Origin: Laspinema sp. D2d
GTDB lineage: Bacteria; Cyanobacteriota; Cyanobacteriia; Cyanobacteriales; Laspinemataceae
NCBI RefSeq assembly: GCF_025370755.1
Contig: NZ_JAMXFC010000037.1
Span: 1-64,000, forward strand
Reading direction: 5' to 3'
DNA length: 64,000 nt
Both the position numbers and the translations under genes were made by a program. The notes under the pieces were generated by a model. The model saw only the letters and a list, made by a program, of their open reading frames with translations, was not told the origin of the DNA and did not search any database. Positions within the stretch are counted from its first letter, which is position 1. Every line of letters starts with the position of its first letter. Positions 15,037-29,584 of the stretch are shown here, in pieces.

Positions 15037-15145
15037 TGGATAAAAAGCGCTGGAGATCTCGATGGTATTTATAATCTAGGGGGGAATAAACGCCAGCAAT
15101 GCTGCTGGCCGATCGCCCAAAAGCTCATCACAGCAGGAGAACAGA

Positions 15146-16216
15146 ATGTCTGTAGTTATCGTAACCGGATCCGGTGGATTGATTGGTTCCGAGGCCGCCC
15201 TATTCTATGGCAAAGCGGGGTACAAAGTCGTCGGGATTGACAATGATATGCGTCAATACTTTTTTGGACAGGAAGCTTCCACGAGTTGGAACCGTGAACG
15301 AATCAGCAAAGAACTCGGGGATCAGTATGAACATAACGAAGTTGATATCCGCAATCCCGAAGCCATTAATGCAATTTTTTCTAAGTACAAATCAGATATC
15401 GTCCTAATTGTCCATACGGCGGCGCAACCCTCTCATGATTGGGCAGCAAAGGAACCGTTTACGGATTTCTCGATTAATGCCAATGGGACCCTGGTTTTGC
15501 TAGAGGCAACCCGGGAGTTTTGTCCGGAGGCGGTGTTTGCCCATTGTTCCACCAATAAGGTGTATGGCGATCGCCCGAATACATTACCCCTGGTTGAACA
15601 GGAAACCCGTTGGGAATTAGACCCCTCTCACCCCTACCAAAATGGGATCCCCGAAGAGATGAGCATTGACCAAAGTATGCATTCTCTGTTTGGGGCCTCG
15701 AAAGCTGCCGGAGATCTCTTGGTCCAAGAGTATGGGCGCTATTTTAATATTAAAAGTGCCGTATTTCGTGGCGGGGTCCTCAGTGGACCCCAACATTCCG
15801 GTGCTCAATTACATGGGTTCCCTTCCTATTTGATGAGATGCGCCATGACAGGAACCCCTTACACCGTGATCGGTTATAAAGGCAAGCAAGTCCGGGACGT
15901 CATCCACTGTACTGATGTGATTCTGGCGATGGATACCTTTTTTAAAAAACCTCGGATTGCTGAAGTGTACAACCTGGGTGGGGGTCGCGAGAGCAATACT
16001 TCGGTGATGGAAGGGATCCAAATGTGCGAAGAGATTACTGGCAAGAAGATGGAAACCAGCTACACTGAGACCAACCGCATGGGGGATCATATCTGGTATA
16101 TCAGTGATTTAAGTAAGTTCAAATCCCATTATCCCGAGTGGAAATTAAGCTATCCTAGTGTCAGAGATATTTTTCAAGAAATCTATGACTTTAATCAGTC
16201 TCGCTGGGGGAGTTGA
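15146..16216 (+). CDS. NAD-dependent nucleotide-sugar epimerase (extended SDR family)
   Basis: The 356-residue protein has the Rossmann motif TGSGGLIGS at residues 7-15 and resembles CDP-paratose/CDP-tyvelose 2-epimerases in the block [17 protein letters not shown] and in [13 protein letters not shown]. Such enzymes invert a sugar carbon on a nucleotide carrier, here probably supplying a special sugar for the glycan. The catalytic YxxxK of most SDR enzymes reads FGASK (in [13 protein letters not shown]), with Phe replacing Tyr; related cyanobacterial sequences, as far as I recall, share this. CAGGAGAA is a good ribosome-binding site before the ATG. The exact substrate is uncertain. Confidence 0.8.
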
Positions 16217-16288
16217 GTTGCCCAATTTCTTGGACATAACTTCTTGAAAAGTTATCAAGTCTTGCCAGGGTGTTCTACTAAAAAAATC

Positions 16289-16314
16289 AGCAATTAGCCC
16301 CAGCGCTAATTGCT
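16289..16314. other. Perfect 10-bp hairpin
   Basis: AGCAATTAGC at 16289-16298 pairs with GCTAATTGCT at 16305-16314 around a 6-base loop. There is no T-run on the plus-strand side, but a run of six A lies to the left, so it would act as a terminator only for minus-strand transcripts. On the plus strand it may be an mRNA-stabilising or processing hairpin between the epimerase and wecG-like genes. Confidence 0.45.
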
Positions 16315-16346
16315 ATGGATTAAAATTTACCCAGTTCTAAATAGAG

Positions 16347-17162
16347 GTGATTGGGGTGATTAATCGAGGGAAATACTCCGTACTCGGAGTGGAAATATCA
16401 GCCATTGATTATGAATATGGTGTGGAAGCGATTATTAATGCAGCCAAGGCGCGATCGCCTCTAGCCATGACCGCTTTGGCGGTTCATGGGGTGATGACGG
16501 GCTTTTCTGATCCCGTTCATCGTCGCCGCTTAAACGCATTTGACTTGGTAACTCCTGATGGACAGCCAGTGCGCTGGGCGCTTAACTGGATTCATGGGAT
16601 TAAACTGCCCGATCGCGTCTATGGTCCAACGTTGACTTTAAAAGTCTTAGAAGCGGCTGCAAGAGAAGGATTGCCGGTGTATTTTTACGGCAGCAAACAG
16701 GAAACCTTGGACCTATTATTGAAGAAATTAGAGGTTAAGTTTCCCGGGTTAAAAGTCGTTGGTGCAGAACCCTCTAAATTTCGCCGGTTAACTCCCGAAG
16801 AAAAGCAAGAAGTAGTTAATCGGATCAATAATAGCGGTGCAACCATTACTTTTGTGGGGTTAGGTTGTCCTCGTCAAGAAGTCTGGGTTTATGAGTATCG
16901 CAATCATTTATCCATGCCCTTGATGGCAGTGGGGGCTGCCTTTGATTTTCATGCGGGTACGGTATCTCAGGCACCGCCTTGGATGCAGAAACGGGGACTG
17001 GAATGGTTCTACCGATTGATTCAGGAACCGGGACGGTTGTGGAAGCGCTATTTGTTATTGAATCCGATGTATTTGACCTTTACTTTTTTACAAATGTTAT
17101 CCATTTCTAAGCAGCCGGTTTTGAAGCCAACGGGAATGGAACCGGAAGAGTCTTATGGGTAA
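16347..17162 (+). CDS. WecG/TagA/CpsF family glycosyltransferase
   Basis: The protein (271 residues from GTG 16347, or 268 from GTG 16356, which has AGAGG at a better distance) matches the GT26 family: MTALAVHGVMTGFSDPVHR, the catalytic-region FDLVTPDGQPVRWAL near 58-72, and VGLGCPRQEVWVYEY near 173-187. Members move N-acetylmannosamine or a related sugar onto undecaprenyl-diphosphate-linked GlcNAc, an early step of surface-glycan assembly. The C-terminal tail (about 215-250), with clustered basic and hydrophobic residues (LYRLIQEPGRLWKRYLLLNP type), mediates membrane binding in this family. It closes the glycan locus, with a strong terminator 50 bp downstream. Confidence 0.88.
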   Translation: MIGVINRGKYSVLGVEISAIDYEYGVEAIINAAKARSPLAMTALAVHGVMTGFSDPVHRRRLNAFDLVTPDGQPVRWALNWIHGIKLPDRVYGPTLTLKVLEAAAREGLPVYFYGSKQETLDLLLKKLEVKFPGLKVVGAEPSKFRRLTPEEKQEVVNRINNSGATITFVGLGCPRQEVWVYEYRNHLSMPLMAVGAAFDFHAGTVSQAPPWMQKRGLEWFYRLIQEPGRLWKRYLLLNPMYLTFTFLQMLSISKQPVLKPTGMEPEESYG

Positions 17163-17211
17163 GCTATGAATCCGGTTGCGGCAGATTTCAAACTGCTGTT
17201 AACGGAACAAA

Positions 17212-17236
17212 GCCCGCTTAAAGGCGGGCTATTTTA
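17212..17236 (+). terminator. Rho-independent terminator after the glycan locus
   Basis: A GCCCGC...GCGGGC stem at 17212-17230 is followed by TATTTTAT. The same AGCCCGC/GCGGGCT stem recurs at 34376-34393. It ends transcription of the plus-strand glycan genes. Confidence 0.75.
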
Positions 17237-17290
17237 TGAGAATCACCGATCGCCCCATCCCTTCTACACTTACTTGCCAACCCCTTCTCT

Positions 17291-17551
17291 CTAATTCGCC
17301 GTCGAGTTTACTCGGGAATAGTGCCACCCTGGACTAACTTCTAAGGGCAGAATTTTTAAACCATTGAGTACAAATCCACGGTATGTCACCCCTTGGCAGG
17401 GATGCCACTCATAGATCGCTTCGCTACCTTCAAGATACTCAATTTCGCTCATTACCCGGTATTTGTGGCTTTCACTTTGAGAAAAAAGCATCACAGGGGT
17501 TTCTTCTCCAGCAGGGGCAATCAGTTTATGAGTGGGAGCAAATATACTCAT
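17291..17551 (-). CDS. Small conserved-looking hypothetical protein
   Basis: The 86-residue protein is not a family I can name. It has no signal peptide or membrane segment and reads as a compact beta-rich domain (YRVMSEIEYLEGSEAIYEWHP, YRGFVLNGLKILPLEV). The ATG has GAGG about 8 bp upstream, and codon use looks genuine. It stands alone between the terminator of the glycan locus and the next plus-strand gene. Confidence 0.6.
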   Translation of the reverse strand: MSIFAPTHKLIAPAGEETPVMLFSQSESHKYRVMSEIEYLEGSEAIYEWHPCQGVTYRGFVLNGLKILPLEVSPGWHYSRVNSTAN

Positions 17552-17842
17552 GATTAAAACCTCGATTAAAACTTGAATTAAAGTAGGGAGATTCAGTGAT
17601 TTCCCGGTTGACTTGTTGTATTATCAGCGGATTTTAACCTCTGCTGTGCGATCGCTATCCTCCAAGGCAAGTGAAATACTTTACTCTACTCCTGTGATTG
17701 CGATCGCATTCGATGTTTTTTAACGCGATACTCCACTTGTCCTACCCTTAACGGTGGCTTCATTCTAAAAACTGAGTCACTCAACCTGGGAAGATGGTAA
17801 AAAGCACTCAACAGCGGCTCTAAATTAAGAAGGAGAATCCAA

Positions 17843-18298
17843 ATGCAATTTCAAACCTCAGCACAAGAAGCCTGTTATCACAAAGTCGCCCTCTGGATGC
17901 AAGAATTATTTGGCAAATTTCCCTGTGCTCGCCAAGATATCCCTGGATTGGGGCTATTTATGGGTTCCGCCCTGGTGGAAGTCCTGATTTTACCTTGGGG
18001 AGAAGAGGATTCTGTAATCAATACCCGCGCTTATGTGGTGACGGGGACGGAACTGACTGCGGATCTGATGCGCTTTCTCCTGGAACAGAATAGCAATATG
18101 ATTTTCGGGGCTTTTGGCATTGACTCGAAGGGTGATATCCTGTTCGAGCATAGTATTGTGGGTTCCACTTGCGATAAAAAAGAACTGGAATCTTCGGTGA
18201 ATGCTGTTCTGGAAGTCTCCGACGAGTACGATGATCAATTGGTAGAACGATGGGGCGGCAAACGTGCTCTCGATCGCATCTGCGGCAACTCTAACTAG
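17843..18298 (+). CDS. YbjN/type III secretion chaperone-like protein
   Basis: The 151-residue acidic protein has the alpha-beta pattern of the YbjN/CesT-like fold: an N-terminal helix (ACYHKVALWMQELFG), strands with ALVEVLILPWGEEDSVINTRAYVVTG, a central helix (ADLMRFLLEQNSNMIFGAF), and FGIDSKGDILFEHSIVG followed by a long C-terminal helix. Cyanobacteria carry such stand-alone proteins without any type III secretion system; they are thought to bind peptides or partner proteins. The start has a strong AAGGAGAA site. Fold assignment is by pattern only. Confidence 0.6.
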   Translation: MQFQTSAQEACYHKVALWMQELFGKFPCARQDIPGLGLFMGSALVEVLILPWGEEDSVINTRAYVVTGTELTADLMRFLLEQNSNMIFGAFGIDSKGDILFEHSIVGSTCDKKELESSVNAVLEVSDEYDDQLVERWGGKRALDRICGNSN

Positions 18299-18319
18299 AG
18301 CATCGGTACCCTAGCGGTT

Positions 18320-18383
18320 AAAACCCGGTTTCTTGAGAAATATCCCCATTAGGACCAAATCTGCGCCAGAAACCGGGGTTCTT
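18320..18383. repeat. Palindromic AAACCCGGTTTCT / AGAAACCGGGGTTCT element
   Basis: AAACCCGGTTTCTT at about 18320-18334 is mirrored by AGAAACCGGGGTTCTT at 18368-18383, making a stem of about 12 bp with small mismatch around a 33-base spacer. Elements with this core are, to my knowledge, dispersed in filamentous cyanobacterial intergenic DNA. It lies between convergent genes. Confidence 0.5.
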
Positions 18384-18413
18384 GTCCCTTAGATCGAAAC
18401 GGGGACCGAGGCC

Positions 18414-19538
18414 CTAACCCTTGTTAACCCCTGATAAACTCAGGTGGAGGGGCGATCGCTGATGAGTAATCCGGTCAGAAAATCCTTCCCTTTGGCGATC
18501 GCACCAGTCTAAGACGCGATTCCACCCCCACCAGCGATCGCGATCTCCAGCTTTTTTCTGAGTCGCTAAATTACTGACATAGCCTACATGACCCCCATAC
18601 CGAGTCAGCAAAAGCTCGATCGCCGGGTTGCGATCGCAAATTTCCTTTAACTCCGGCACGATCGCTGGGTGAAAGATCGGGTCATCTGCCGCATACAAAA
18701 TCAAGGTAGGTTTGGTAAACTCTGGCAAAATTTTCAGGGAATTGGTAGCGGCATAATACTCCTCTACCGAGGCAAACCCGAGACGGGGAATCACCACCTC
18801 ATGATCAAATCCCCAAATGCTATTAACCCGGGCGATCGCCGAAGGGTCGAAGTGGTTGGGATGAAGCTGATGCAATTTCCAGGCAAGTTCTTTCAAGTTT
18901 TTAGTGATCGCCTTTTCCAGATATTGCCCCAAAGGTTGTTTCACTAAATAGGACATGGACCGATTAGAATCCAGATTGGGACAAATCACTGCCCCACCCC
19001 CTATTTCCTTGGGGTGTAAGTCTAAATCTTTTCCCCAATCGGCGATCGACTCCCCTGCTTTTATCCCCCACAACGCCAATTGTCCTCCCAAAGAATAACC
19101 CATAAACCAAAACGGTCCTGGACATCCCATTGATTTGGCTGTTGCCGCAATCTGTACAAAATCTTCCCCCTCGTACAATCCATCGGAACTCACAGTGGGA
19201 GATAATTCAGCAGTTTTTCCATGACCCCGCCAGTCAAAAAGGACCACAGAATACCCTCGGGCAAAAGCTTTCCGCCCCAGAATTTTCAAAAACCATTGTT
19301 GGGGAAGTTCTCCCGTAACCCCGTAAGTAGCCACAATAGTTCCTTTAGAGTGTGGGTTGCGGGCAATCCATCCATAAATCGGCACTCCTCCTGCGCCAGT
19401 AAAAAGGGTTTCTTGATAAGGCGCTTCAGGATCAGCGATCGTCTGTTCCCAGTCTCGACTCGCGACTAAGGCTGTATGCAGGGTCATCGCCAGCCCATTT
19501 TTTAAGAAAAATGGTGGATTGTAGTTTGAATCAAACAT
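18414..19538 (-). CDS. Alpha/beta hydrolase, YheT-like
   Basis: The 374-residue protein has an alpha/beta-hydrolase core: the oxyanion-region strand GTIVATYGVTGELP near 66-79, VLFDWRGHGKT near 99-109, the nucleophile elbow GYSLGG with Ser149, an acid-region LILYAADDPIFHP, and the catalytic His in RYGGHVGYV. The spacing resembles YheT-type hydrolases acting on esters or lipids; the substrate is unknown. Start could be ATG 19538 or ATG 19487 (MTLHTALVASRD); neither has a strong ribosome-binding site. A triple GTTACA repeat matching the HLR1 consensus lies 86-113 bp upstream, suggesting control by the light-responsive regulator RpaB. Confidence 0.8.
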   Translation of the reverse strand: MFDSNYNPPFFLKNGLAMTLHTALVASRDWEQTIADPEAPYQETLFTGAGGVPIYGWIARNPHSKGTIVATYGVTGELPQQWFLKILGRKAFARGYSVVLFDWRGHGKTAELSPTVSSDGLYEGEDFVQIAATAKSMGCPGPFWFMGYSLGGQLALWGIKAGESIADWGKDLDLHPKEIGGGAVICPNLDSNRSMSYLVKQPLGQYLEKAITKNLKELAWKLHQLHPNHFDPSAIARVNSIWGFDHEVVIPRLGFASVEEYYAATNSLKILPEFTKPTLILYAADDPIFHPAIVPELKEICDRNPAIELLLTRYGGHVGYVSNLATQKKAGDRDRWWGWNRVLDWCDRQREGFSDRITHQRSPLHLSLSGVNKG

Positions 19539-19623
19539 AACTCAGTCTCAATAATCGAGAGGATTGTGAAGAAAGCCGCGTACCATACTCTGCGGGACCA
19601 GAAATCAGGATCTGCTCTCTCGA

Positions 19624-19651
19624 TTGTAACGAAATTGTAACAAAATGTAAC
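19624..19651 (-). promoter_or_regulatory. HLR1-type (RpaB) site, triple GTTACA repeat
   Basis: Read on the minus strand: GTTACATT-TT-GTTACAAT, then three bases, then a third GTTACAAT. The first two match the published HLR1 consensus, (G/T)TTACA(T/A)(T/A) twice with two bases between. It lies upstream of the hydrolase gene on the same strand. Confidence 0.65.
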
Positions 19652-19702
19652 GAAAGGGCTAACGTCAGCCTAGTTGAGGAAATCAATACAGCTTGATTCA
19701 TC

Positions 19703-21547
19703 CTAAAGGTTACGTTGAGCGCGATCGCAATAAATCTGCGCCACGCGATCGCCTGGATTCCGATCTAAACACTCCCCAAACAACTGCGCCGACTCTCGAA
19801 ACCTCTGGCGATCGTAAAGGGATAATGCTTCTGTAAATCGGTTTAGGGTTGCCAGCTTTCTGTCTCTCATTTCTGGGGAGTCAGCATCAAACACTTCATA
19901 CACTGTCACCGCTTCGGATTTGCCTTTAACTTGGACATGATCAATGCGCCGAATCGCATAACTATCCCGCTGCTGTAACCGAGAATAAGTCTCTTCCGTA
20001 ATTAAGAGGGCTACTCCATAATTTTTAGTTAATCCTTCCACCCGGGAGGCGACATTCACCGCATTACTAATCACCGTACTATCCATGCGATTTTGTCCGC
20101 CCACGGTTCCTAACATTAACAATCCTGTATTAATCCCAATCCCATTTTTAATCGGTGGAAATCCCGATTTACTACGTTCTTGATTGTACTCACCCAGGCG
20201 ATGGAGCATAGAAATTCCCGCTTTTACGGCATTATCGGCTTCTCCGCTAAAAAGGGCCATAATTGCATCACCGATATATTTATCAATAAAGCCTGAATGT
20301 TCAGTAATGGCGGGTTCCATCCGGGATAGATAAGCATTAATAAACTTAAAATTATCCGAGGGGTCCATCATTTCACTGAGGGTCGTAAACTCTCGAATAT
20401 CGGAGAAGAGCACCGACATTTCTAACTGAACTTGGTCCCCTAATTCCACTTCGACAATACTGGATTTATCTAAAAATTGCAGAAATTGATTGGGAACAAA
20501 CCGTGCATAGGCTTGATTGAGTTGAAAAAGCTCATGGGTAAATCGTTCTCGTTCTGCCTCAGCCCGTTGGCGATCGGTGACATCAATTCCCACCGATACG
20601 GTAGCCGTCCCTTGTTGGTATTTTTGGGCGGCAATGAGATAATGTCGCTTTTCTTCATGGATCTGATAATCAATGATAGCAGAAGCTGATGTTTCAGGAC
20701 TAGAAATGAATTCACTCAAAAAAATAGCTAACTTAGCATTTTCTTTTAAAAATCCAACTTCTTGACCAATAAAAGCTTCTTGCGAGAGGTTAAAGTTTTC
20801 GGCTAAATGACGATTTACCCCCACGAATACCCCACCGGAATCAATCCAGGAAATTGAACCGGGAACCGCATTTAACACCGCCTCTAGTTGCTCTTTTGCT
20901 TCGGCGAGTTCTTGTTCACGGGCTTTTAATTGTAGAACCATTTGGGTAAATATATTAGCGAGTCGTCCTAACTCATCCTCGCGATTAGCTACTTCATGTA
21001 AGGAGTTCGGTTGGAAAGTGTTGTTTTCAACAGCAATAGCAGCTTGAATCACTTTATCAACTTCTTGCAAATAGCTCGACATTTCTCGATTTGCCGAAAT
21101 TAATGCTTCCTCCATTGCTTTGCGTTTAGTGACATCTCGGATGGTCAAAACCGCCGTGCGATCGCCATTTTTAAGTTCCACAAAAGAACCAGAAATTTCC
21201 AGAATGAGTAAATGCCCCTCCTGTTGAAATTCATATTCCCCTGTTGAATAATGTTGGGAGAGGACCTGATAAACAGGATGCTCTGTTTCTAACAGTACAG
21301 TCCCCCCTTGAGTTAGCGGAATTAGGGTGGAGAGAGGACAACCGAGAACCGAAAGATGACTCAGATTCACCAGGCGATCGAAGGTAGTATTGCACCATTG
21401 AATTACTCCATCTTCTCCCGTCCAGACGATCGCCTCATCAATTGATCCCAGGGCCAGTTCCATCTTGCCCAGAGTTGCCCGCAACTCTTTAATCACAATG
21501 GCTAAATCTCTTTGACCGAGTTCTAAGCCGGTTAATTGATTACTCAT
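19703..21547 (-). CDS. PAS-PAS class III adenylyl cyclase
   Basis: The start is taken at ATG 21547 (an upstream TTG would add two residues), giving 614 residues. Order: PAS (about 25-140), HAMP-like helical linker (150-210) with coiled coil, second PAS (220-330), catalytic cyclase domain (375-550), and a C-terminal TPR-like tail. Catalytic residues visible: metal-binding Asp383 (LFSDIREF) and Asp427 (KYIGDAIMALF), adenine-selecting Lys423, and transition-state Asn498 and Arg502 (NAVNVASR). It should make cAMP in response to a signal sensed by the PAS domains; no membrane span is seen. The first 325 residues closely match the PAS protein encoded at 22180-23703. Confidence 0.88.
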   Translation of the reverse strand: MSNQLTGLELGQRDLAIVIKELRATLGKMELALGSIDEAIVWTGEDGVIQWCNTTFDRLVNLSHLSVLGCPLSTLIPLTQGGTVLLETEHPVYQVLSQHYSTGEYEFQQEGHLLILEISGSFVELKNGDRTAVLTIRDVTKRKAMEEALISANREMSSYLQEVDKVIQAAIAVENNTFQPNSLHEVANREDELGRLANIFTQMVLQLKAREQELAEAKEQLEAVLNAVPGSISWIDSGGVFVGVNRHLAENFNLSQEAFIGQEVGFLKENAKLAIFLSEFISSPETSASAIIDYQIHEEKRHYLIAAQKYQQGTATVSVGIDVTDRQRAEAERERFTHELFQLNQAYARFVPNQFLQFLDKSSIVEVELGDQVQLEMSVLFSDIREFTTLSEMMDPSDNFKFINAYLSRMEPAITEHSGFIDKYIGDAIMALFSGEADNAVKAGISMLHRLGEYNQERSKSGFPPIKNGIGINTGLLMLGTVGGQNRMDSTVISNAVNVASRVEGLTKNYGVALLITEETYSRLQQRDSYAIRRIDHVQVKGKSEAVTVYEVFDADSPEMRDRKLATLNRFTEALSLYDRQRFRESAQLFGECLDRNPGDRVAQIYCDRAQRNL

Positions 21548-21549
21548 AG

Positions 21550-21732
21550 TCAATCTGGGGTATTAGAGTTACTAAGATTAAGAGGGCTTAGTTGGGCGAT
21601 AAAATGCCATTTTTTTGCAATTTTTTGAATAGTAATATAATGATTTGATAGAATATAACTTCCATCGGGAGCCAGGATTATCCGATTAATCGGAGGATTT
21701 ATAACCGGGGAAAGTTCTTTCATCGTGAACCT
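21550..21732 (-). pseudogene. Remnant of a second short PAS gene
   Basis: An open frame from ATG 21723 to TGA 21550 (57 residues) matches the C-terminal 58 residues of the PAS protein at 23706-24101: HYITIQKIAKKWHFIAQL here against HYITAEKIEGRWYFAAQL there, and both end in a Pro-Asp-type tail two bases before the next PAS gene's ATG. Similarity runs four codons further upstream (RFT against RFS) and then meets in-frame stops. The N-terminal PAS core is gone, replaced by a parA-like remnant. Confidence 0.8.
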
Positions 21733-21808
21733 TAATTGCTAATTTTACAGTAAAGTTGGACTTTCTAGCACCCCCTCTCCTTGAATAAATCTAAACCATA
21801 TTAGGCAA
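21733..21808 (-). pseudogene. Remnant of the 5' end of a second MinD/ParA gene
   Basis: Read on the minus strand from TTG 21808, the frame aligns with the first codons of the ATPase gene at 25193-25951: after a TAG it gives IYSRRGGARKSNFTV against [15 protein letters not shown]. The Walker A glycine is changed (TGK to ARK) and the TAG falls at codon 6. About codon 26 it runs directly into the PAS remnant, so the rest of parA, all of the glutaminase gene and the front of the PAS gene have been deleted. Confidence 0.75.
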
Positions 21809-21940
21809 CGGGGACGGATAAACTAATTATGAAAAATACTGGCTCAGAACAAATCCCTTGCTGATTAATTTATCATGATATTGCCCACTTCTAACCCCTA
21901 AGTCTTAGGGTAAGACAGTGAATCCGGAAAGTCTAATACT

Positions 21941-22070
21941 TTATAATTATAATCCTTATAACTTTTAGGCATATTTCAGGCAAGTTAGAGAATAACGAAC
22001 TTTTAAATATTTTGCTCTCTTTTTAGACAAGAAAATCTTAATTTTACTGGAACGAGGGTCTGTCTCTCTC
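21941..22070 (+). pseudogene. Remnant of a second lysR promoter and 5' end
   Basis: A 32-bp block at 21941-21972 matches 26084-26115 upstream of the intact lysR gene at 30 of 32 positions. Similarity continues into the coding start: GAA TAA CGA ... AAA TAT TTT here against GAA TTA CGG ... AAA TAT TTT in lysR, giving RTFKYFALF against RHLKYFVAV. The start ATG reads AGA and codon 3 is a stop. Similarity fades after about 30 codons. Confidence 0.75.
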
Positions 22071-22179
22071 AAAATAGGTGTAAAGCCATTGCCTCAAAAT
22101 CCGTGAACATCAGAGGGAAATTTCTGCCTAACTTCGCCGTAAACAAAGATTCAACAGTTCAGTTTTTGTAAGATAAGAC

Positions 22180-23703
22180 TTACCCCCAAAATTCATCAAG
22201 GTTGACTTCTGACATCTCTTGCTTCACCTCTTGAAAATAGCTGCTTTCCGTTAGCATAGCCACATCTTTTTCCCGCTTCTGATGGTCGATTTCAATCTTT
22301 AATTCTGCCAATTGTTGTTTCAGTTGCTCCTCCCGACGTTTTTGTTCGGTAATATCCTGAACGATGCCTTCATAGTAGAGCGTTTTTCCACTACTATCTT
22401 TGACAATCCGTGCATCAATCTGAATCCAAATTATCCGGCCATCTTTACAATAAGAACGGTATTGAAAATTCTTAGCTGCCCCTTGCTGCTTTGCCACTTC
22501 TTTGAATTCAAGTCGTTTTTCAGCATCGACATAGAGTTGCTCACCAATATTGGTAATACTTTCAATCATCTCGTTTGGGGAATCATAGCCATAAATTTTG
22601 GCTAAGGCGGGATTTACGGTGATAAATCGTCCTTCCGGTGACGATTGAAAAATCCCTTCTAAAGCATTTTCAAAGATGCTGCGATAGTTCTCTTCAGCAA
22701 TTCGCAGGGATTCTTCTGCTCGTTTGCGATCGGTGATATCAATGCCAACCGATACCGTAGCACTCCCTTGCTGATATTTTTGAGAGGCAATTAAATAATG
22801 TCGCTTTTCTTCATTGATGTTAAAATCAAGGATACAAGAGGCCGCCGCTTCATTACTAGAAATAAATTCACCTAAGAAGCTGGCTAATTTAGCATTTTCT
22901 TGTAAAAATCCCACTTCGCGACCAATAAAAGCTTCTTGAGACAAGTTGAAGTTTTCAGCCAAATGACGATTGACACCCACAAATAAGCCACCGGAATCAA
23001 CCCAGGAAATAGAACCGGGGACGGCATTTAAAACCGCCTCTAGTTGCTCTTTTGCTTCTGCAAGTTCTTGTTCACGGGCTTTTAATTGCAAAACCATTTG
23101 AGTAAAAACCCGGGCGAGTCTTCCTAACTCATCTGGGCGAGAGGCGACTAGATCTAAAGATTCGGGTTGAAAGCTATTATCTTCAACAGAAATTGCAGCC
23201 CGAATTACTTTATCAACTTCTTGCAAATAGATAGACATTTCTCGGTTTGCCGAAATTAATGCTTCCTCCATTGCTTTGCGTTCAGTAACATCTCGAATGG
23301 TTAAAACCGCCGTGCGATCGCCATTTTTAAGTTCCACAAAAGAACCCGCAATTTCTAATATTAAGAGACTCCCCTCCTGGTGAAATTCATATTCCCCCGT
23401 TTCAAACTTTTGAGAGAGGACCTGCTCAACGGGGTATGCTGTTTCTAATAAGGAAATTCCCCCTTGAGTCAGCGGAACTAGCGTGGAGAGAGGGCAACCC
23501 AGAACTGAAAGATGACTGCGATTCACCAGGCAATCAAACGTGGTGTTACACCATTGAATCAGCCCATCCTCTCCCGTCCAGACGATCGCCTCATCAATCG
23601 ACCCCAGTGCCAATTCCATCTTCCCCAGAGTTGCCCGCAACTCCTTAATGACAACGGCTAAATCTCGACTACCTAATTCTAAGTTTTCTAATGGATTACT
23701 CAT
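22180..23703 (-). CDS. Multi-PAS signalling protein without an output domain
   Basis: The start is taken at ATG 23703, two bases after the stop of the short PAS gene, giving 507 residues. Residues 1-325 (PAS, HAMP-like helix, PAS) closely match the adenylyl cyclase encoded at 19703-21547. At residue about 330 (VGIDITDRKRAEESLR) the sequence switches to a third PAS with PAC motif (YRSIFENALEGIF to YYEGIVQDITEQK), then a coiled coil and a short acidic tail ending NLDEFWG. No kinase, GGDEF, EAL or cyclase domain follows, so it probably acts by protein contact. It is the last gene of the lysR-facing operon. Confidence 0.85.
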   Translation of the reverse strand: MSNPLENLELGSRDLAVVIKELRATLGKMELALGSIDEAIVWTGEDGLIQWCNTTFDCLVNRSHLSVLGCPLSTLVPLTQGGISLLETAYPVEQVLSQKFETGEYEFHQEGSLLILEIAGSFVELKNGDRTAVLTIRDVTERKAMEEALISANREMSIYLQEVDKVIRAAISVEDNSFQPESLDLVASRPDELGRLARVFTQMVLQLKAREQELAEAKEQLEAVLNAVPGSISWVDSGGLFVGVNRHLAENFNLSQEAFIGREVGFLQENAKLASFLGEFISSNEAAASCILDFNINEEKRHYLIASQKYQQGSATVSVGIDITDRKRAEESLRIAEENYRSIFENALEGIFQSSPEGRFITVNPALAKIYGYDSPNEMIESITNIGEQLYVDAEKRLEFKEVAKQQGAAKNFQYRSYCKDGRIIWIQIDARIVKDSSGKTLYYEGIVQDITEQKRREEQLKQQLAELKIEIDHQKREKDVAMLTESSYFQEVKQEMSEVNLDEFWG

Positions 23704-23705
23704 AC

Positions 23706-24101
23706 TCAATCTTCGGGATTAGAATAACTCGGATTTAAAGGACGAAGTTGAGCCGCAAAATACCACCGGCCCTCAATTTTTTCCGCTGTAATGTAATGCT
23801 CCGATAAAACCGAATCCCCATGTTTATCAATCACCATCGCATTAATCGGGTGGTTCGCTACATGGGAAATTTCGGTCATGCTAAATCGAGAAAAGCCCAA
23901 GTTATGGGAATCATGAAAATTCAAGGGAATAATATCTGCTAAAGTTTGACCAATCAGTTCAGAACCCCAGTGATAAATTTCACTAAACTGAGGATTGATA
24001 TAGACAACAAACCCTTCATCATCTGCAATCACCACGGGTTGCCGAGCTTCCGATCGCAAATCGGAAAAGTTTCTTACGAATTGTTCATCAGTCATGTCCA
24101 T
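23706..24101 (-). CDS. Short single-PAS protein
   Basis: The 131-residue protein (129 from ATG 24095, which is better spaced from the AAGAAGGAA site) is one PAS domain: VVIADDEGFVVYINPQFSEIY (residues 23-43) is the start of the PAS core, followed by GQTLADIIPLNF and, near the end, HYITAEKIEGRWYFAAQL. There is no output domain. It may pass a signal to the large PAS protein, whose ATG follows after 2 bp. A truncated copy of this gene lies at 21550-21732 before the cyclase gene. Confidence 0.8.
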   Translation of the reverse strand: MDMTDEQFVRNFSDLRSEARQPVVIADDEGFVVYINPQFSEIYHWGSELIGQTLADIIPLNFHDSHNLGFSRFSMTEISHVANHPINAMVIDKHGDSVLSEHYITAEKIEGRWYFAAQLRPLNPSYSNPED

Positions 24102-24155
24102 TTCCTTCTTCTAAACCGAGGAATTTTATTTTTCTACAGGTTTTAGGGACCCTTT

Positions 24156-25187
24156 TTACCAATCATTTATCCCTTCACCACCCGCAATCCATTGTTTTAA
24201 ATCCCGTTCAGGTTTTGCCACATTAAACAGATGCAACCCAAAATCATGGGAGAGGTCTTCGCAGACTTTGATCCCTCGCAGGCTATTTCCTTTTGCATCT
24301 AAAGGGGGTGAAAAAGTGCCAATTCCCAATAAATTGGGAACCACTGCGGTAATTCCTCCTCCTACGCCACTCTTAGCAGGCATTCCCACTCGGTAACACC
24401 ATTCCCCCGAGGCATCATACATTCCACAGGTGAGCATAACGCTGATAACATCCTGCACATAATGTTCATCGATCGCCCGTTCCTGAGTGATTGGATTCAC
24501 CCCTCCATTTGCCAAAGTTGCTGCTAACATAGCTAAATCTTTGGCAGTAACCAAAATCGAACATTGTTGAAAATAAAGGTCCAGGGTTTCGTCAATTTTT
24601 TCATTGACCATGCCAAAATTTAGCATTAAGTATGCCATTGCTCGGTTACGGTAGCCCGTGGCTCTTTCTGACAAAAAGACTGGGACATTAATATCATGCT
24701 CCCGTCCCGTATAACGTTTAAACATTTCTAGCAATCGCTTCAGGCGTTCTGTGCCATTTTTGCCTTTAATCAGGTCAGCAGTTGCGATCGCCCCGGCATT
24801 CACCATCGGGTTATAGGGACGATTAGTTGCTTCATCCAGGACAATAGAATTAAAGGCTTCCCCCGTCGGTTCTACACTGACTTTGCTATTGACATACTCG
24901 CGCCCATGATCCTCTAGGGCCAAGCCAAATACAAAAGCTTTAGAAATAGATTGAATCGTAAATAATTTGTCACAATCCCCGACTTCAAATACCTCTCCCT
25001 CTGCTGTGATGACACAAATGCCAAACCACTCAGGTTCAGCCAGGGCCAATTCAGGAATGTAGTCAGCGATCGCCCCCTCATTCAGCAATTTATATTTTTC
25101 GTAAAGGTCCGTCAAATAATTGCGAAAAGGTGAAGTAACAGAAGTGATAGAATTAGCAAAAGATTGTAAATCTCCGATATTCGACAT
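24156..25187 (-). CDS. glsA: Glutaminase (serine-dependent GlsA family)
   Basis: The start is ATG 25187 ([13 protein letters not shown]), 5 bp after the parA stop and with AAGG upstream; the open frame extends further upstream inside parA but those residues are not family-like. The 343-residue enzyme converts glutamine to glutamate and ammonia. The catalytic pair of this beta-lactamase-like family is visible as Ser80 and Lys83 (TIQSISKAF), along with [41 protein letters not shown] and [12 protein letters not shown], all typical of GlsA. It is cytoplasmic. Its place between a ParA-like ATPase and PAS proteins is unusual and suggests a signalling or nitrogen-sensing link. Confidence 0.93.
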
Positions 25188-25192
25188 AATCC

Positions 25193-25951
25193 TTACCCTT
25201 CCATAATTTGCTGGGCCACCTTGCGGAACTCCTGGCTGAGTGGGTGTTCGGGATATTTCACGCAAAACACTCCTTCACTCGCCAGTTGAATCAAATCTTC
25301 TGAAAGGGGAAAAACCCCGGCAACGGTTTCACCGTAAGTTTCTTCAACTTTCTGTTTCAATACATCGAGGTTAAGCTTACTATGAGCTTTATTAATTGCC
25401 AACAGCATTTTACGGACTTTTAATTGCCGTGCGACATCCACCGTTACCGCCGTTCCTTGATAGTCTTGCTTGTCCGGACGCAGAATTAACAGCAAAATAT
25501 GAGAGATGGCAATGGATAAAAATGTTTCTTTAGATAACCCAGGGTGAGTATCAATAAATAAGTAGTCTAATTTCAGGGTTTTGACTAAGCTGCGAAATCC
25601 ATCATTCATCAGCTTGACATCATAGCCATCCCTGAGAATGCGGGCAATATGATCCGGTTTCACACTAGAGGGAACTAGATAGAGTTTGCCCGGTTCAGTG
25701 ACCCCAATCATGGTCCCCACATCATAAGCTGAATCTTCAATGGGACTATCACCCCACAGGTAATTATTCAGCGTTTTATCCATCTGTTCTGGTTCTAAAC
25801 AAAACAGATTATGAATCCCTGGTGACGGAACATCGGTATCTACAACTCCAACCCGATACCCTTGTAACGCAACGGTAGTTGCTAAGTTGGCAGTAAAGTT
25901 AGACTTACCTGTCCCACCTCGATAAGAGTGAATAGAAACAACCTTAGGCAT
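25193..25951 (-). CDS. MinD/ParA-family ATPase
   Basis: The 252-residue protein has the deviant Walker A region [10 protein letters not shown] at residues 9-18, the Walker A' aspartates [10 protein letters not shown] (37-46) and a Walker B-like strand [11 protein letters not shown]. MinD/ParA ATPases form ATP-bound dimers that position cargo or regulate partners. The usual first signature lysine of KGGxGK is Arg11 here. No ParB-like partner lies nearby and there is no C-terminal amphipathic MinD tail. The gene is first in the operon with glsA and the two PAS genes and diverges from lysR. A broken copy of its first codons lies at 21733-21808. What it positions is unknown. Confidence 0.85.
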
Positions 25952-26083
25952 CTTTTGTAAATACTAAAATTATCAGACTTGTTAGGTGAGTAGGAATACT
26001 TTTTGAGGCAGCCTTTCTAGCTTTTGCCCGACTCTGAACGATTGACTCTATCCTAGGGTAGTCCAGAAGTAAAGTCGAATGCC

Positions 26084-26115
26084 TTATAATCATAATGCTT
26101 ATAACTTTTAGGCAT
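26084..26115 (+). promoter_or_regulatory. AT-rich operator/promoter block between lysR and parA
   Basis: Two TTATAA palindromes (26084-26089 and 26099-26104) flank an ATAAT repeat, and the block ends AACTTTTAGGCAT about 14 bp before the lysR ATG. It matches the block at 21941-21972 almost exactly while flanking DNA has drifted. A LysR autoregulatory site or shared promoter is likely. Confidence 0.5.
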
Positions 26116-26128
26116 GGCATAGGCAATT

Positions 26129-27019
26129 ATGGAATTACGGCATCTTAAATATTTTGTGGCCGTTGCACAAGACCTCAGCTTTAGCCTTGCTGCAAAACGA
26201 CTGTACATCTCCCAACCGGCGTTAAGCCGTCAAATCAAATACCTGGAAAATGAACTGGGTGCAATGCTTTTTTTGAGGCAATCTAATGGATTAAAACTCA
26301 CCGAGGCAGGGCATTTTTTCCTGGAACAAGCCCAAGATATTTTGAACCGGAGTCAAATAGCCGTTGAAACGATTAAGACTCATTATACCCAAACTGAAGA
26401 GCCTTTAATGGTTGGCTATATCCCGACGATTCTCCAGAGTTTTTTGGGTCAAACCTTACACCAATTTGGACGAACTTATCCTCAAATTGCCGTGCGTTTT
26501 CACGAGATGTTGCCCAGTCAGCAAGTAAAAGCGCTCAGAGAGGGGGCGATCGATATTGCCTTTATGGGCAATCCACCGGATGAATTAGAGACAGAATTTA
26601 CCGTTAAATGTATTAAAAAAGTCCCCATTGTTGCCCTGGTATGGAATACCCATCCCTTGGCATACCAATCCTCTATTAATCTAGCGGAACTAGCGGCTGA
26701 AAAATTTATCGGAATCTCTGAAGTCACCTTTCCAGGACGGAACGATCGCATCCGAGACACTTGCCGCTGTGCTGGTTTCATCCCCAATCTACATTTATTT
26801 GCTGATAGTCATGCGTCAATGATTGCCCTCGTTGCCGCAGGGCAAGGGGTCGCCATCATGCCCAACGAAGCAGAAGCACTCCCTCATCCCCAAGTTCGGT
26901 TTATTTCCCTTCACCATCCCATCTACTATGCCCGCTCAACAGCCGTATGGAGAAAAGAAATGCCGGATCACTCTTTAGATAAATTTCTTAAAATTCTGTT
27001 TGAGCAGATTCAAATTTAA
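26129..27019 (+). CDS. LysR-family transcriptional regulator
   Basis: The 296-residue protein has the LysR winged helix-turn-helix at residues 1-60 (LRHLKYFVAVAQDLSFSLAA, then ISQPALSRQIKYLE) and a periplasmic-binding-protein-like effector domain from about 90 (LMVGYIPTILQSFLG) with GQGVAIMPNEAE near 250. LysR regulators usually control a divergent neighbour, here the parA-glsA-PAS operon whose first start lies 177 bp away. The effector is not evident; a glutamine- or nitrogen-related ligand would suit the glutaminase but is a guess. A fossil second copy of its 5' end is at 21941-22070. Confidence 0.9.
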   Translation: MELRHLKYFVAVAQDLSFSLAAKRLYISQPALSRQIKYLENELGAMLFLRQSNGLKLTEAGHFFLEQAQDILNRSQIAVETIKTHYTQTEEPLMVGYIPTILQSFLGQTLHQFGRTYPQIAVRFHEMLPSQQVKALREGAIDIAFMGNPPDELETEFTVKCIKKVPIVALVWNTHPLAYQSSINLAELAAEKFIGISEVTFPGRNDRIRDTCRCAGFIPNLHLFADSHASMIALVAAGQGVAIMPNEAEALPHPQVRFISLHHPIYYARSTAVWRKEMPDHSLDKFLKILFEQIQI

Positions 27020-27128
27020 ACAATAAGCGTTATAAATAACTTCAATTTTTTCTGAAACAATAAAGTTAAAATTGTTATTTTAAATCTGTAATTTTTACCC
27101 ATTAAAATCTCTCAATTATTAAACATTC

Positions 27129-27797
27129 CTAGGGATGAATTTGACTTAAAATCAAGCGGAGGCGATCGTAATCATCCTTGAGCAAAACGCTCAGAGTGCG
27201 TCCAGCTTGGACTAACCAATCGCGATCGGCCCCGCGTAATTGGTACACCTCGCGAATAGCTGCCGCAGTCAAGGCGTCTACAGGTGCGCCAGGAACTTGC
27301 AAGAGAGTGCGGAGGAAATCAAATTGTTGGGTAAAGTGGACAATTTCTGAGGGTTGACAGCGATAGACCGCTTGGTGAATTTGAGGGGGACGGGGGGGGA
27401 TATATTGATAGACAACGCCGGTGGGAAGGCGTGATCCATTTTGGTTGTCAAGATGGGGACAAAATCCGGCGATCGCCGCCCGAAATTCAGTTTTAAGCAT
27501 CGCAAAAATCTGGGGTTGCTGTTCCCTTAACCCCTCTAAAGATAAACCCAGCGCCCTCGCCCGATGTACCGAATCAATCGGACTGGTGGTGGCAAAATAA
27601 ACCACCCCATAAATCTGATTTCCTGACTCTTCATCCAAAGACTTCACCCAGCTACCAAAGGGCGGCATCAGGGGAAAATTTAACTCTTCGGGATCTAAAC
27701 ATTGGGCTAAAAACTCAGTCGTTGCCGTCTCAATCACCTCAGCAATATGGTCCGGGTGACGATGTTCATTGGCAAATTGGGGTAAAGGTAGACGCAT
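27129..27797 (-). CDS. Conserved cyanobacterial protein, probable HAS-barrel domain
   Basis: The 222-residue protein is of a type I associate with cyanobacterial genomes and annotation as HAS-barrel domain protein (the small beta-barrel of HerA and ATP synthases). Supporting blocks are HIAEVIETATTEFLAQ, PPFGSWVKSLDEESGNQIYGVVYFATTSP (about 45-74) and HRARALGLSLEGLREQQPQIF. There is no signal peptide, ATPase motif or membrane span. The function is unknown. It stands between the lysR gene and ndhS; the 109 bp to lysR contain only AT-rich DNA. Confidence 0.65.
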   Translation of the reverse strand: MRLPLPQFANEHRHPDHIAEVIETATTEFLAQCLDPEELNFPLMPPFGSWVKSLDEESGNQIYGVVYFATTSPIDSVHRARALGLSLEGLREQQPQIFAMLKTEFRAAIAGFCPHLDNQNGSRLPTGVVYQYIPPRPPQIHQAVYRCQPSEIVHFTQQFDFLRTLLQVPGAPVDALTAAAIREVYQLRGADRDWLVQAGRTLSVLLKDDYDRLRLILSQIHP

Positions 27798-27887
27798 AAT
27801 TAACGCTTAAACATCTCTTTAAATAAAAGAAAAATACAGGGTTGAAGAGTTAAATCTCATCAACCCTGAACGGTGATTCCTCGTGAA

Positions 27888-28085
27888 CTATTTGCTTTTC
27901 TTGCGACCTGCAGTGGCATCTACAGGTTCAAGTTCCGAGAGTCGAAATGTGACTAATTTATCCCAATTTCCACCCTCAAACAGGACAGCCGCCTTCCCAT
28001 CGGTCAGGCGTTGAACTTGTCCTTGAAAGTCGTAATAAGTATCATCGGGATTTTTAACACGAACAGCCGATCCAGGCAAAATCAT
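27888..28085 (-). CDS. ndhS: NAD(P)H-quinone oxidoreductase subunit S
   Basis: The start is ATG 28085 ([18 protein letters not shown]); a TTG at 28127 would add 14 residues not seen in the family. The 65-residue product matches cyanobacterial NdhS (Ssl0352 type), including [19 protein letters not shown]. NdhS has an SH3-like fold and forms part of the ferredoxin-docking site of the thylakoid NDH-1 complex, which runs cyclic electron flow and respiration. The lysine-rich tail (GRKKSK) is common. It is a single gene, unlinked here to other ndh genes; ndhN lies 20 kb away. Confidence 0.87.
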
Positions 28086-28207
28086 AATGTTTTCCAGATG
28101 CTTAGAGTTAAGGGATGCTGCTGACAAGTCAGGAAACCTGAGTCATCATCCGTTATGGTGAATCGTTTGGGAGTCATTCGTCAAGGTTTCCTCAAGATAG
28201 CTAGAGG

Positions 28208-29467
28208 CTAAAACTTTTTCTTCACTTTTTCCCGGTGATAGGCGACAGATTCAACCAAACCCAGGGCGATAAAATTGGTCAGCATGGCGGACCGACCATA
28301 ACTCAGCCAAGGGAGGGGAATCCCCGTCACGGGGGCCAGTCCAATAGTCATCCCAATATTGACGACCACCTGAAACACAAGCATTGATAAAACCCCGATC
28401 GCCAACAATGCGCCAAAGGTATCTTTAGAGTTTTGGGCAATCAAGACGAGGCGCAGGCAAATCAACCAAAAGGACAGGAGGATCACCATCGACCCGATAA
28501 ACCCAAATTCTTCACCGATCGCCGAAAAGATAAAGTCAGTATGCTGTTCCGGGATAAAGTTAAGCTGGGTTTGGGTTCCATTATAGAGCCCGCGCCCATG
28601 CAGTCCCCCGGACCCAATCGCGATCCGAGATTGGATCAGGTGATATCCAGCGCCGAGGGGGTCTTTTTCTGGGGTGAGGAAGGTGGTCAACCGTTCTTTT
28701 TGATAATCTTTGAGGATGTTCCATAAAAGGCTCCCGATTCGACCAACAATCAGGTTCATCACGACAGTTCCCAACGCCCCCAAAAAAGGCCAGGGTAAGG
28801 TACGCCAGCCAATTAAAGCCATTAAGCCAGCCCACGCAAACCATCCGGGTAAATAAAGGCTAAACAGAAACGCGGCTACGAGGGGGGATATCATGAGGAT
28901 GATCCAACCCGGATTGGTGTTACCCCAATACAGCATTCCTAGAGTGATCGCCCCAAAGACTAGGGAGGTCCCTAAGTCGGGTTGGATGAAAACTAAGCCC
29001 CAGGGTACGGCAGTAATAGCCAGGGTTTTGAACATAGAACCCAGAGTATCGGGGGGCCGTTCATGCAGGAGTGCCGCCAGGGTAATAATCATCCCTATTT
29101 TGGCAAATTCTGACGGTTGAATATTAAATCCACCAATGGTAATCCACCGCTGTGCACCGAGGGCAGTGGTCCCGATAAACATAACCGCCAGTAGGGAGAG
29201 ATTGGTGGCACCATAAACCACCCACTTTAATTGAATCAAGTTATCGTACTGCCATCGCGAGATGATGACGGCCATCACCAGTCCAATCCCACCCACCAAC
29301 CAGTGTTGCCACCAGTCGGTCCACCCGAGGTTGAGTTCGGTACTGCGGATCATAATCCCGCCAAATAGAGTTAAGGCGACAGGCAAGACAAATAAGAGCC
29401 AGTCAGACTCTAGCCAGGGTTGTATCCAAGCTCTCCAACGCGATCGACTTACGGTCTTTTGAAACAT
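28208..29467 (-). CDS. rodA: Rod shape-determining protein RodA (SEDS family)
   Basis: The 419-residue protein has about ten membrane spans and the SEDS signatures ALGAQRWITIGGFNIQPSEFAKIG (split at 103-127), HTDFIFSAIGEEFGFIGS and GLAPVTGIPLPWLSYGRSAM. RodA polymerises peptidoglycan glycan strands with a partner PBP2 during cell elongation. PSEFAK and the later IAIGSGGLHGRG (W-D region equivalent) are intact. It follows mrp on the same strand after a 117-bp gap filled by a 9-bp tandem repeat. The minus-strand DNA just before the ATG is CCTCCTTGAAGT, lacking a normal Shine-Dalgarno. Confidence 0.93.
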   Translation of the reverse strand: MFQKTVSRSRWRAWIQPWLESDWLLFVLPVALTLFGGIMIRSTELNLGWTDWWQHWLVGGIGLVMAVIISRWQYDNLIQLKWVVYGATNLSLLAVMFIGTTALGAQRWITIGGFNIQPSEFAKIGMIITLAALLHERPPDTLGSMFKTLAITAVPWGLVFIQPDLGTSLVFGAITLGMLYWGNTNPGWIILMISPLVAAFLFSLYLPGWFAWAGLMALIGWRTLPWPFLGALGTVVMNLIVGRIGSLLWNILKDYQKERLTTFLTPEKDPLGAGYHLIQSRIAIGSGGLHGRGLYNGTQTQLNFIPEQHTDFIFSAIGEEFGFIGSMVILLSFWLICLRLVLIAQNSKDTFGALLAIGVLSMLVFQVVVNIGMTIGLAPVTGIPLPWLSYGRSAMLTNFIALGLVESVAYHREKVKKKF

Positions 29468-29483
29468 ACTTCAAGGAGGTAAT

Positions 29484-29564
29484 GGGGGAGATGGGGGAGA
29501 TGGGGGAGATAGGGGAGATGGGGGAGATAGGGGAGATGGGGAAGATAGGGGAGATAGGGGAGAT
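29484..29564. repeat. Nine tandem 9-bp repeats of GGGGGAGAT
   Basis: Nine head-to-tail units with only G/A changes at the first base and one other substitution fill the gap between mrp and rodA. The plus strand is almost pure purine, so the minus strand, which is transcribed, is pyrimidine-rich. It forms most of the mRNA segment ahead of the rodA start. Confidence 0.9.
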
Positions 29565-29584
29565 AGGGTTTGTTCTATTTACAG

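Follow-up and report, generated by a model that had tools for sequence, protein, structure and literature searches.

The window, by which we mean the whole stretch of 64,000 nucleotides of Laspinema sp. D2d DNA that was analysed (from a genome of 6.6 Mb in 83 contigs), contains an accessory island with two copies of one gene module, of which the right one is intact and the left one is partly decayed (Table 1). On the minus strand, the order is parA, glsA, a small PAS gene, a long PAS gene, the fossil and a PAS-cyclase gene, with lysR divergent from parA. The product of lysR combines an HTH_1 with a LysR substrate domain and is thus a LysR-type regulator; AlsR and GltC are among the NCBIfam models nearest to it, with all listed models below their cut-offs. 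For glsA, the start given in Table 1 is a chosen one, as the open reading frame extends to 25265.

Table 1. Position of the genes, remnants and operators at the island.
Feature	Coordinates	Strand	Basis
Accessory island, 7.5 kb, both module copies inside	19655..27125		flank alignments to same-genus genomes; GC
PAS-cyclase gene, 616 aa: left-copy PAS part (aa 1 to ~329) and class III cyclase domain (~aa 330-616)	19703..21553	-	Pfam Guanylate_cyc (PF00211) 3e-20; crossover; tree
PAS stub (3' end of the duplicated small PAS gene, 57 codons)	21550..21723	-	BLOSUM62 score 158 vs top of 1000 shuffles 42; 106/171 identical; frame and overlap
Deletion scar (1987 bp; parA codon 27 joined to small-PAS codon 75, glsA lost)	21723..21728		block ends, diagonals, codon numbers
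parA 5' fossil, ~27 codons	21728..21808	-	protein score 73 vs shuffle maximum 46; 55/81 identical
Decayed parA-lysR spacer	21809..21927		53/119 identical on diagonal 4143
Retained lysR operator in the fossil	21928..21975	+	40/48 identical to intact; matrix score 54.3
lysR 5' fossil, ~41 codons, start lost, frame broken	21985..22110	+	block 2, alignment, translations
Long PAS gene, right copy, 509 aa, ancestral form	22180..23709	-	Scytonematopsis contorta L084 homologue over residues 7-508, 66 %
Small PAS gene, 131 aa, intact	23706..24101	-	72 % to L084
glsA, glutaminase A	24156..25187	-	TIGR03814 368 bits, cut-off 255
parA, MinD/ParA-type ATPase, 252 aa	25193..25951	-	Pfam ParA 2e-16, CbiA
Intact lysR operator	26071..26118	+	matrix score 52.5; conserved upstream of lysR in other genomes
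lysR regulator, 296 aa, divergent from parA	26129..27019	+	HTH_1 2e-23, LysR_substrate 5e-36

Parts of the module are common in other cyanobacteria. Scanning named genomes with a three-sequence ParA alignment yielded 121 relatives, and 80 loci were kept. Where ParA identity is at least 65 % (56 loci), glsA is present in 51 and both glsA and a long-PAS-like gene lie downstream in 36, which the island shares with this parA-glsA-PAS neighbourhood (L039-L118). It differs from the neighbourhood in its small PAS gene, found in only one of these 56 loci (S. contorta, L084), in its lysR, no gene of this kind being present in the available DNA of the 56 loci (a single match reached 30 %), and in the lysR operator, which is absent at up to 4 mismatches from all 80 ParA loci. 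L084 is also the only one of the 80 to combine the small PAS gene with a full long PAS gene, the latter in its PAS-ended form and without an adjoining cyclase. More distant relatives of the small PAS gene (E<=1e-20, 42-50 % identity) occur in 16 other genomes out of 388 of the order, and no parA was found in the extended sequence of 18 other lysR loci. Beside this closest relative of the module, L084 encodes a 1494-aa protein (14054-18538) that presumably resembles cyanobacterial nitric oxide synthase, and a scrap similar to the C-terminus of this protein lies near lysR in L191 (5965-6219). Decay of parA-glsA pairs was also observed elsewhere: in the unrelated genome of L035 (9222-10488, G037:C112), parA codons 29-171 continue in frame into glsA codons 106-369 and the start of parA has shifted out of frame, and in L036 (7934-8495, G045:C1) a parA with internal stops is followed by the last 36 glsA codons.

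When the island is compared with itself, two long blocks match between the left and right copies. Block 1 pairs 20559-21723 with 22715-23879 (79.8 % identity, 1166 columns) and spans the cyclase gene and the PAS stub, while block 2 pairs 21728-22110 with 25871-26251 (62 %, 390 columns, E about 1e-24) and comprises the parA start, the parA-lysR spacer and ~41 lysR codons. The ungapped diagonals of the two blocks are 2156 and 4143, which points to a single deletion of 1987 bp that took away parA beyond codon 27, the whole of glsA and the part of the small PAS gene that precedes codon 75. The pairwise alignment proposed by the first-pass annotation thus returned two collinear blocks and bore out its main claims, namely that PAS, parA and lysR remnants are all present beyond chance in the order and orientation of the intact module, and that glsA and most of parA were lost by internal deletion. 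Tandem duplication followed by such a deletion would be the best reading, as nothing simpler accounts for the two collinear blocks and the single jump of 1987 bp; the repeat unit, put at about 4 kb in the annotation, comes out nearer 4.9 kb by arithmetic from the coordinates because lysR was included. Other details need similar adjustment. The fossil does lie at 21550-22070, where it had been placed, although its lysR remnant extends to about 22110, and homology is not confined to the three pieces named, since the parA-lysR spacer is homologous as well and stays on a single diagonal (4143) between 21730 and about 21999.

The remnants differ in how clearly they stand out from shuffled sequence, the yardstick that had been suggested for them. 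Translated in one frame, the PAS piece aligns with residues 72-131 of the 131-aa PAS protein at a score beyond that of any shuffle, although as DNA alone the piece is weak (score 29, equalled by 5 of 300 shuffles). The stub is open for 57 codons from an internal ATG (21723) to its stop at 21552-21550, and this stop and the TTG start codon of the cyclase overlap in the same way as small and long PAS gene do in the intact copy. Its changes are distributed 23:18:31 over the codon positions, which is near relaxed, and its openness is uninformative, as 16-10 % of copies remained open in simulated decay with 30-39 % of sites redrawn. A maintained coding leader, which was considered as a role for the stub, is unsupported on both counts. 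The parA piece (codons 1-27) exceeds shuffles as protein and as DNA (37 vs 28 for the latter) and carries TTG in place of ATG, TAG at codon 6 and GGARKS instead of the P-loop GGTGKS. At the lysR promoter and start, the DNA scores 83 vs 32 for shuffles, but the translated frames score no better than shuffles, so that the coding remnant is visible as DNA only; of the claim that the first ~30 lysR codons can be seen in aligned reading frames, the match itself holds (over ~41 codons) and the frames do not. Interruption of both pieces was correctly noted, given the TAG in parA and a lysR piece without start or open frame. Scored alone, the zones 21785-21925 and 22035-22180 gave no match to the intact module.

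Judged by their reading frames, the parA and lysR remnants are dead. The fossil is homologous to the adjoining intact gene set in the same order and orientation, and coding capacity is destroyed in its parA and lysR pieces, the PAS stub being open but truncated. Pseudogenised tandem gene duplicates are a known general class in bacteria, and with its collinearity, internal deletion, lost starts and stops the fossil resembles them. It differs in that the PAS gene gained an effector domain and the operator is nearly intact, and these survivors, i. e., the rebuilt cyclase gene and the operator, are the more interesting part of the find.

The PAS-cyclase protein carries a class III nucleotide cyclase domain in which FSDIREF, GDAIMALF and NVASR are present, motifs that we take to hold the two metal-binding Asp and the active-site Asn/Arg, and thus looks like a maker of cyclic-nucleotide signals (cAMP or cGMP). 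A three-way comparison of aa 300-371 revealed that the protein is like the long PAS gene product up to aa 329 and like the resident cyclase from aa 330, with the switch point inside a motif common to both parents, D-I/V-T-x-R-K/Q-R-A-E (DITxRKRAE). Because the long PAS gene matches its L084 homologue and hence has the ancestral form, the PAS-cyclase gene is the altered copy; as read from this junction, the left PAS gene was rebuilt by domain exchange, its last PAS domain giving way to a nucleotide-cyclase domain. Among the 388 genomes of the order, the nearest relative of this domain is found in a 1905-aa multidomain protein of the genus (85 % in G005, 84 % in G004 and G006), and in a tree of 34 domains it is sister to the second cyclase of these three genomes (97/89) within a same-genus clade (97/95). 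Of the resident second cyclase gene itself, only a C-terminal scrap is left in this genome, and G003 and G007 likewise contain scraps only. Both halves of the chimera are under purifying selection (dN/dS of 0.18 for the PAS pair, i. e., left vs right, and 0.10-0.15 for the cyclase). The dS of the cyclase domain against its nearest genus relatives (0.96-0.99) is above that of undisputed orthologues (0.50-0.75) and fails to separate first from second cyclases (0.90-1.01), and capture of the domain within this very lineage is therefore not proven.

In its architecture, the protein resembles class III cyclases with PAS/GAF input, in which, according to one account, sensor and cyclase are joined via a helical signalling linker (PMC1592074). 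A study on engineered diguanylate cyclase sensor-effector chimeras indicates that exchanged parts can remain active (PMC12805367); in contrast to these constructs, the PAS-cyclase would be a natural chimera, for which a likely source of each half could be identified by sequence.

The island as a whole is absent from the corresponding site of related genomes. Alignment of the flanks to same-genus genomes stops at 19654 and restarts at 27126-27129, and in four of seven such genomes (G002, G004, G005, and G007) the site is empty, with the flanks 60-66 bp apart. No island remnants as a sign of loss were seen in these four sites, the spacer of which has a hairpin-like repeat. The other three sisters are uninformative, since the contigs of G001 and G006 do not span the site and G003 contains an unrelated insert of ~1.5 kb. 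The latter (L154 5178-6729, G003:C160) occupies the same intergenic site, has by eye a 201-aa membrane-protein-like ORF, gave no blastn match to positions 17001-30000 of the window and suggests a spot that tolerates insertions. The family genomes G008-G013 are uninformative on the ancestral site, too, as the abhydrolase was not matched within the flank (up to 1.5 kb) next to the gene at 27129. GC content in 1-kb windows is 0.37-0.44 within the island vs 0.44-0.53 outside. In addition, the seven same-genus genomes contain no ParA better than E 1e-7, no LysR above 33 % and no PAS N-terminal part at E<=1e-80, no lysR match above 33 % was found in 13 family genomes apart from this one, and the N-terminal part of the long PAS protein occurs at E<=1e-80 in only one of the 388 order genomes, namely this one, where it is present twice. 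Given the empty sites and this rarity of lysR and long PAS in family and order, the island thus appears to be foreign, or else to have been lost from the sampled sisters. Between 19400 and 27300, no RNA family reached its gathering threshold. Nineteen plasmid records match the island, none covering more than 80 % of it, and the best 10 of the 19 contain distant ParA, cyclase, glsA or LysR genes or are unannotated. Further downstream (29482-29568 of the window), blastn hits overlap in steps of 8-10 bp, which hints at a short tandem repeat that differs in length among same-genus genomes.

At E<=1e-70, 19 other genomes out of the 388 contain a relative of the LysR protein, and the regions upstream of 17 of these genes were aligned (G100 and G181, left out of the alignment, also carry the operator by pattern). 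A 48-bp block just before lysR, which roughly reads AAAGTC-AATGCC-TTATAAT-N9-TATAACTTTTAGGCATACC, is shared by 11 of the 17 promoters and not by the other six (by eye), and thus occurs at lysR genes in other families. Ten operators from other genomes served as reference, with L202 excluded owing to a spacer that is one base shorter. Of the core columns, 25 are conserved in nine or more of these ten, and 24 of the 25 are kept by the fossil and by the intact operator alike; of 41 conserved columns in the full 60-column zone, they keep 35 and 38, respectively. The matrix scores of both fall within the range of the ten outside operators (49-76, leave-one-out), the next best site in the window scoring -6, and at up to 3 mismatches the genome contains only these two sites. 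Both arms of the inverted repeat ATGCCT/AGGCAT are intact in the right copy; in the fossil, the left arm reads ATACTT (two changes), which may still work, as the lysR promoter of G143 (L206) has an ATACTT arm too. A second dyad, ATAA-N3-TTAT, is present in the two window copies only and in none of the 17 others and hence is not the site of the LysR family. From the inferred ancestor, fossil and intact operator have each changed at 5 of 48 positions, and the two may have been homogenised by recombination.

Outside the island, the same operator recurs, in part next to broken regulators. At up to 3 mismatches, it was detected in 11 of 17 genomes searched, which are this genome and 10 of 12 outside lysR genomes, with none of four sisters among them; none of all seven same-genus sisters has it at this threshold. 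In 320 genomes of the order (overlapping with the 388), there are 18 matches in 13 genomes vs 6 for the reversed pattern, and 15 matches in 11 genomes remain at up to 2 mismatches. Four of the 17 genomes have two operator copies (this one, G184, G358, and G019). The second copy in G184 (354 bp, 94 %) comes with a lysR stub and is divergent from an EF-hand-like gene, whereas that in G358 lies at a decayed lysR start (score 30 vs a maximum of 16 in 300 shuffles) and is divergent from what we take to be two crcB-like genes and a bestrophin-like one; that in G019 has no detectable lysR stub (score 12, shuffles up to 16). In G228, one of these 11 genomes (L273 1501-1758, G228:C25), an intact operator stands beside a lysR lacking codons 20-239, so that the operator can evidently outlive its regulator for a while. 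Another lysR (L274 1546-2809, G100:C55) is broken by a repetitive insert of ~260 bp, with its operator intact.

That the left copy merely resembles the module, through convergent or coincidental promoter and PAS sequence, is a reading with practically no chance of being right: the PAS DNA taken alone is indeed within reach of shuffled sequence, but block 2 and the 1166 columns across the cyclase gene and PAS stub refute it. Far more serious, if still rather improbable in our estimate, is the view that the fossil is a plain decaying duplicate without function, whose operator owes its good match to chance or to too short a time for decay. The broken parA and lysR pieces, the near-relaxed PAS stub, the two changes in one operator arm and the operator of G228 beside its gutted lysR would all fit this view. 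However, the operator has stayed 83 % identical to its intact counterpart while the adjoining parA, spacer and PAS pieces have dropped to 45-68 % (Fisher p 1.4e-4 for the operator against 21728-21927, which partly reflects the constraint on the intact operator itself). Half of the PAS-pair dS of 0.64 corresponds, by arithmetic, to about 26 % changed sites per copy, and in simulations of neutral decay to this level so good a site arose in 0.2 % of runs started from the inferred ancestor and 0.8 % of those started from the operator consensus. At slower decay such a match stands out less (0.10-0.27 of simulations at 15 %, 0.02-0.07 at 20 %), the score not being rare at 10-15 %, and retention of 35 out of 41 conserved columns in the entire operator reaches only p = 0.06 at 74 % identity. 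Since the outcome hinges on the neutral rate, the apparent case for selection on the fossil operator is moderate.

It is also conceivable, though on balance unlikely, that no tandem duplication took place here and that two already diverged modules arrived successively, or that a second allele recombined beside the first. For three flanking genes, dS against the sister genomes is 0.28-0.65, values that the PAS pair equals or exceeds. If rates are alike, the duplication would therefore be of about the age of the sister split or earlier, and yet four sisters have an empty site; taken together, these values imply that the divergence of left and right copy may predate their arrival. On the other hand, both copies have the same lysR-operator-parA layout, the operator of which is found (at up to 4 mismatches) in none of the 80 other ParA loci, and the closest matches to the cyclase half lie in this genus. 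The account that we favour, at somewhat better than an even chance, is that a foreign-looking module underwent tandem duplication, deletion and domain exchange and that the surviving operator places the PAS-cyclase gene under the control of LysR.

According to this favoured account, in which the order of events is our inference, a module made up of lysR and the divergent parA-glsA-small PAS-long PAS genes would have settled as an accessory island and duplicated in tandem. In the left copy, the deletion would then have fused the parA start to the last part of the small PAS gene, the greater part of lysR would have disappeared, and the long PAS gene would have swapped its C-terminal PAS domain for a cyclase domain of the type resident in the genus, with the crossover in the DITxRKRAE linker. 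What remains of the lysR operator and parA leader would serve as upstream control region of the PAS-cyclase gene, and the fossil would thus most likely be a live control region that ties the new cyclase gene to LysR. The left operator stands as far from the old parA start as before and is now followed by the PAS stub, and the overlap of the stub's TGA with the cyclase TTG, as in the intact pair, would allow translational coupling. A simple consensus scan of 21500-22250 gave four sigma-70-like sites on the strand opposite the cyclase gene, where 2.1 would be expected, and none on the strand of the cyclase gene itself; in the intact counterpart, 25850-26250, the strand that would be needed likewise had none.

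LysR-type regulators sit on an operator, control themselves and switch a divergent operon upon ligand binding. By analogy, LysR on the lysR-parA operator would regulate its own gene and act as ligand-dependent switch of the divergent operon. The single intact LysR may act at both operators, and expression of the glutaminase, ParA and PAS proteins would then share a regulator with cyclic-nucleotide synthesis, so that glutamine breakdown and cyclic-nucleotide signalling would be set together. A ligand near glutamate metabolism would fit the glutaminase, which is only a guess, given that AlsR, GltC and the other listed NCBIfam models are below their cut-offs.

Regulons are described, in passages of two papers, as changing by duplication or loss of regulators and sites as well as by duplication of a regulator together with its operon (PMC5343134, PMC4052901). 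The island is like these cases in the duplication of regulator and sites, but here the regulator's 5' end and operator remain as a scar, which those passages do not describe. A survey of the literature found no title or abstract on this module or on operator-plus-stub scars, by which we do not claim absence from print. We tentatively suggest, at less than an even chance, that such scars are a recurrent route to new targets in this LysR family: the 5' end of lysR would be duplicated with its operator, the regulator copy discarded and the operator kept as promoter of another operon, be it the PAS-cyclase gene, the EF-hand-like gene in G184 or the crcB-like and bestrophin-like genes in G358. In the window, this would have been coupled to the birth of a chimeric sensor cyclase, one duplication giving a new enzyme as well as its regulation.

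Even if the control reading is wrong, the locus is still a clean case of module duplication, deletion and domain exchange. If it is true, a recently built sensor enzyme has its control region in a stretch that annotation would skip as dead, and the fossil records how a duplicated module turned into a new, still co-regulated gene. With parallel stubs in two other lineages, the signature of a kept operator beside a decayed regulator start could then be searched for across bacteria as a mark of ongoing regulon growth.
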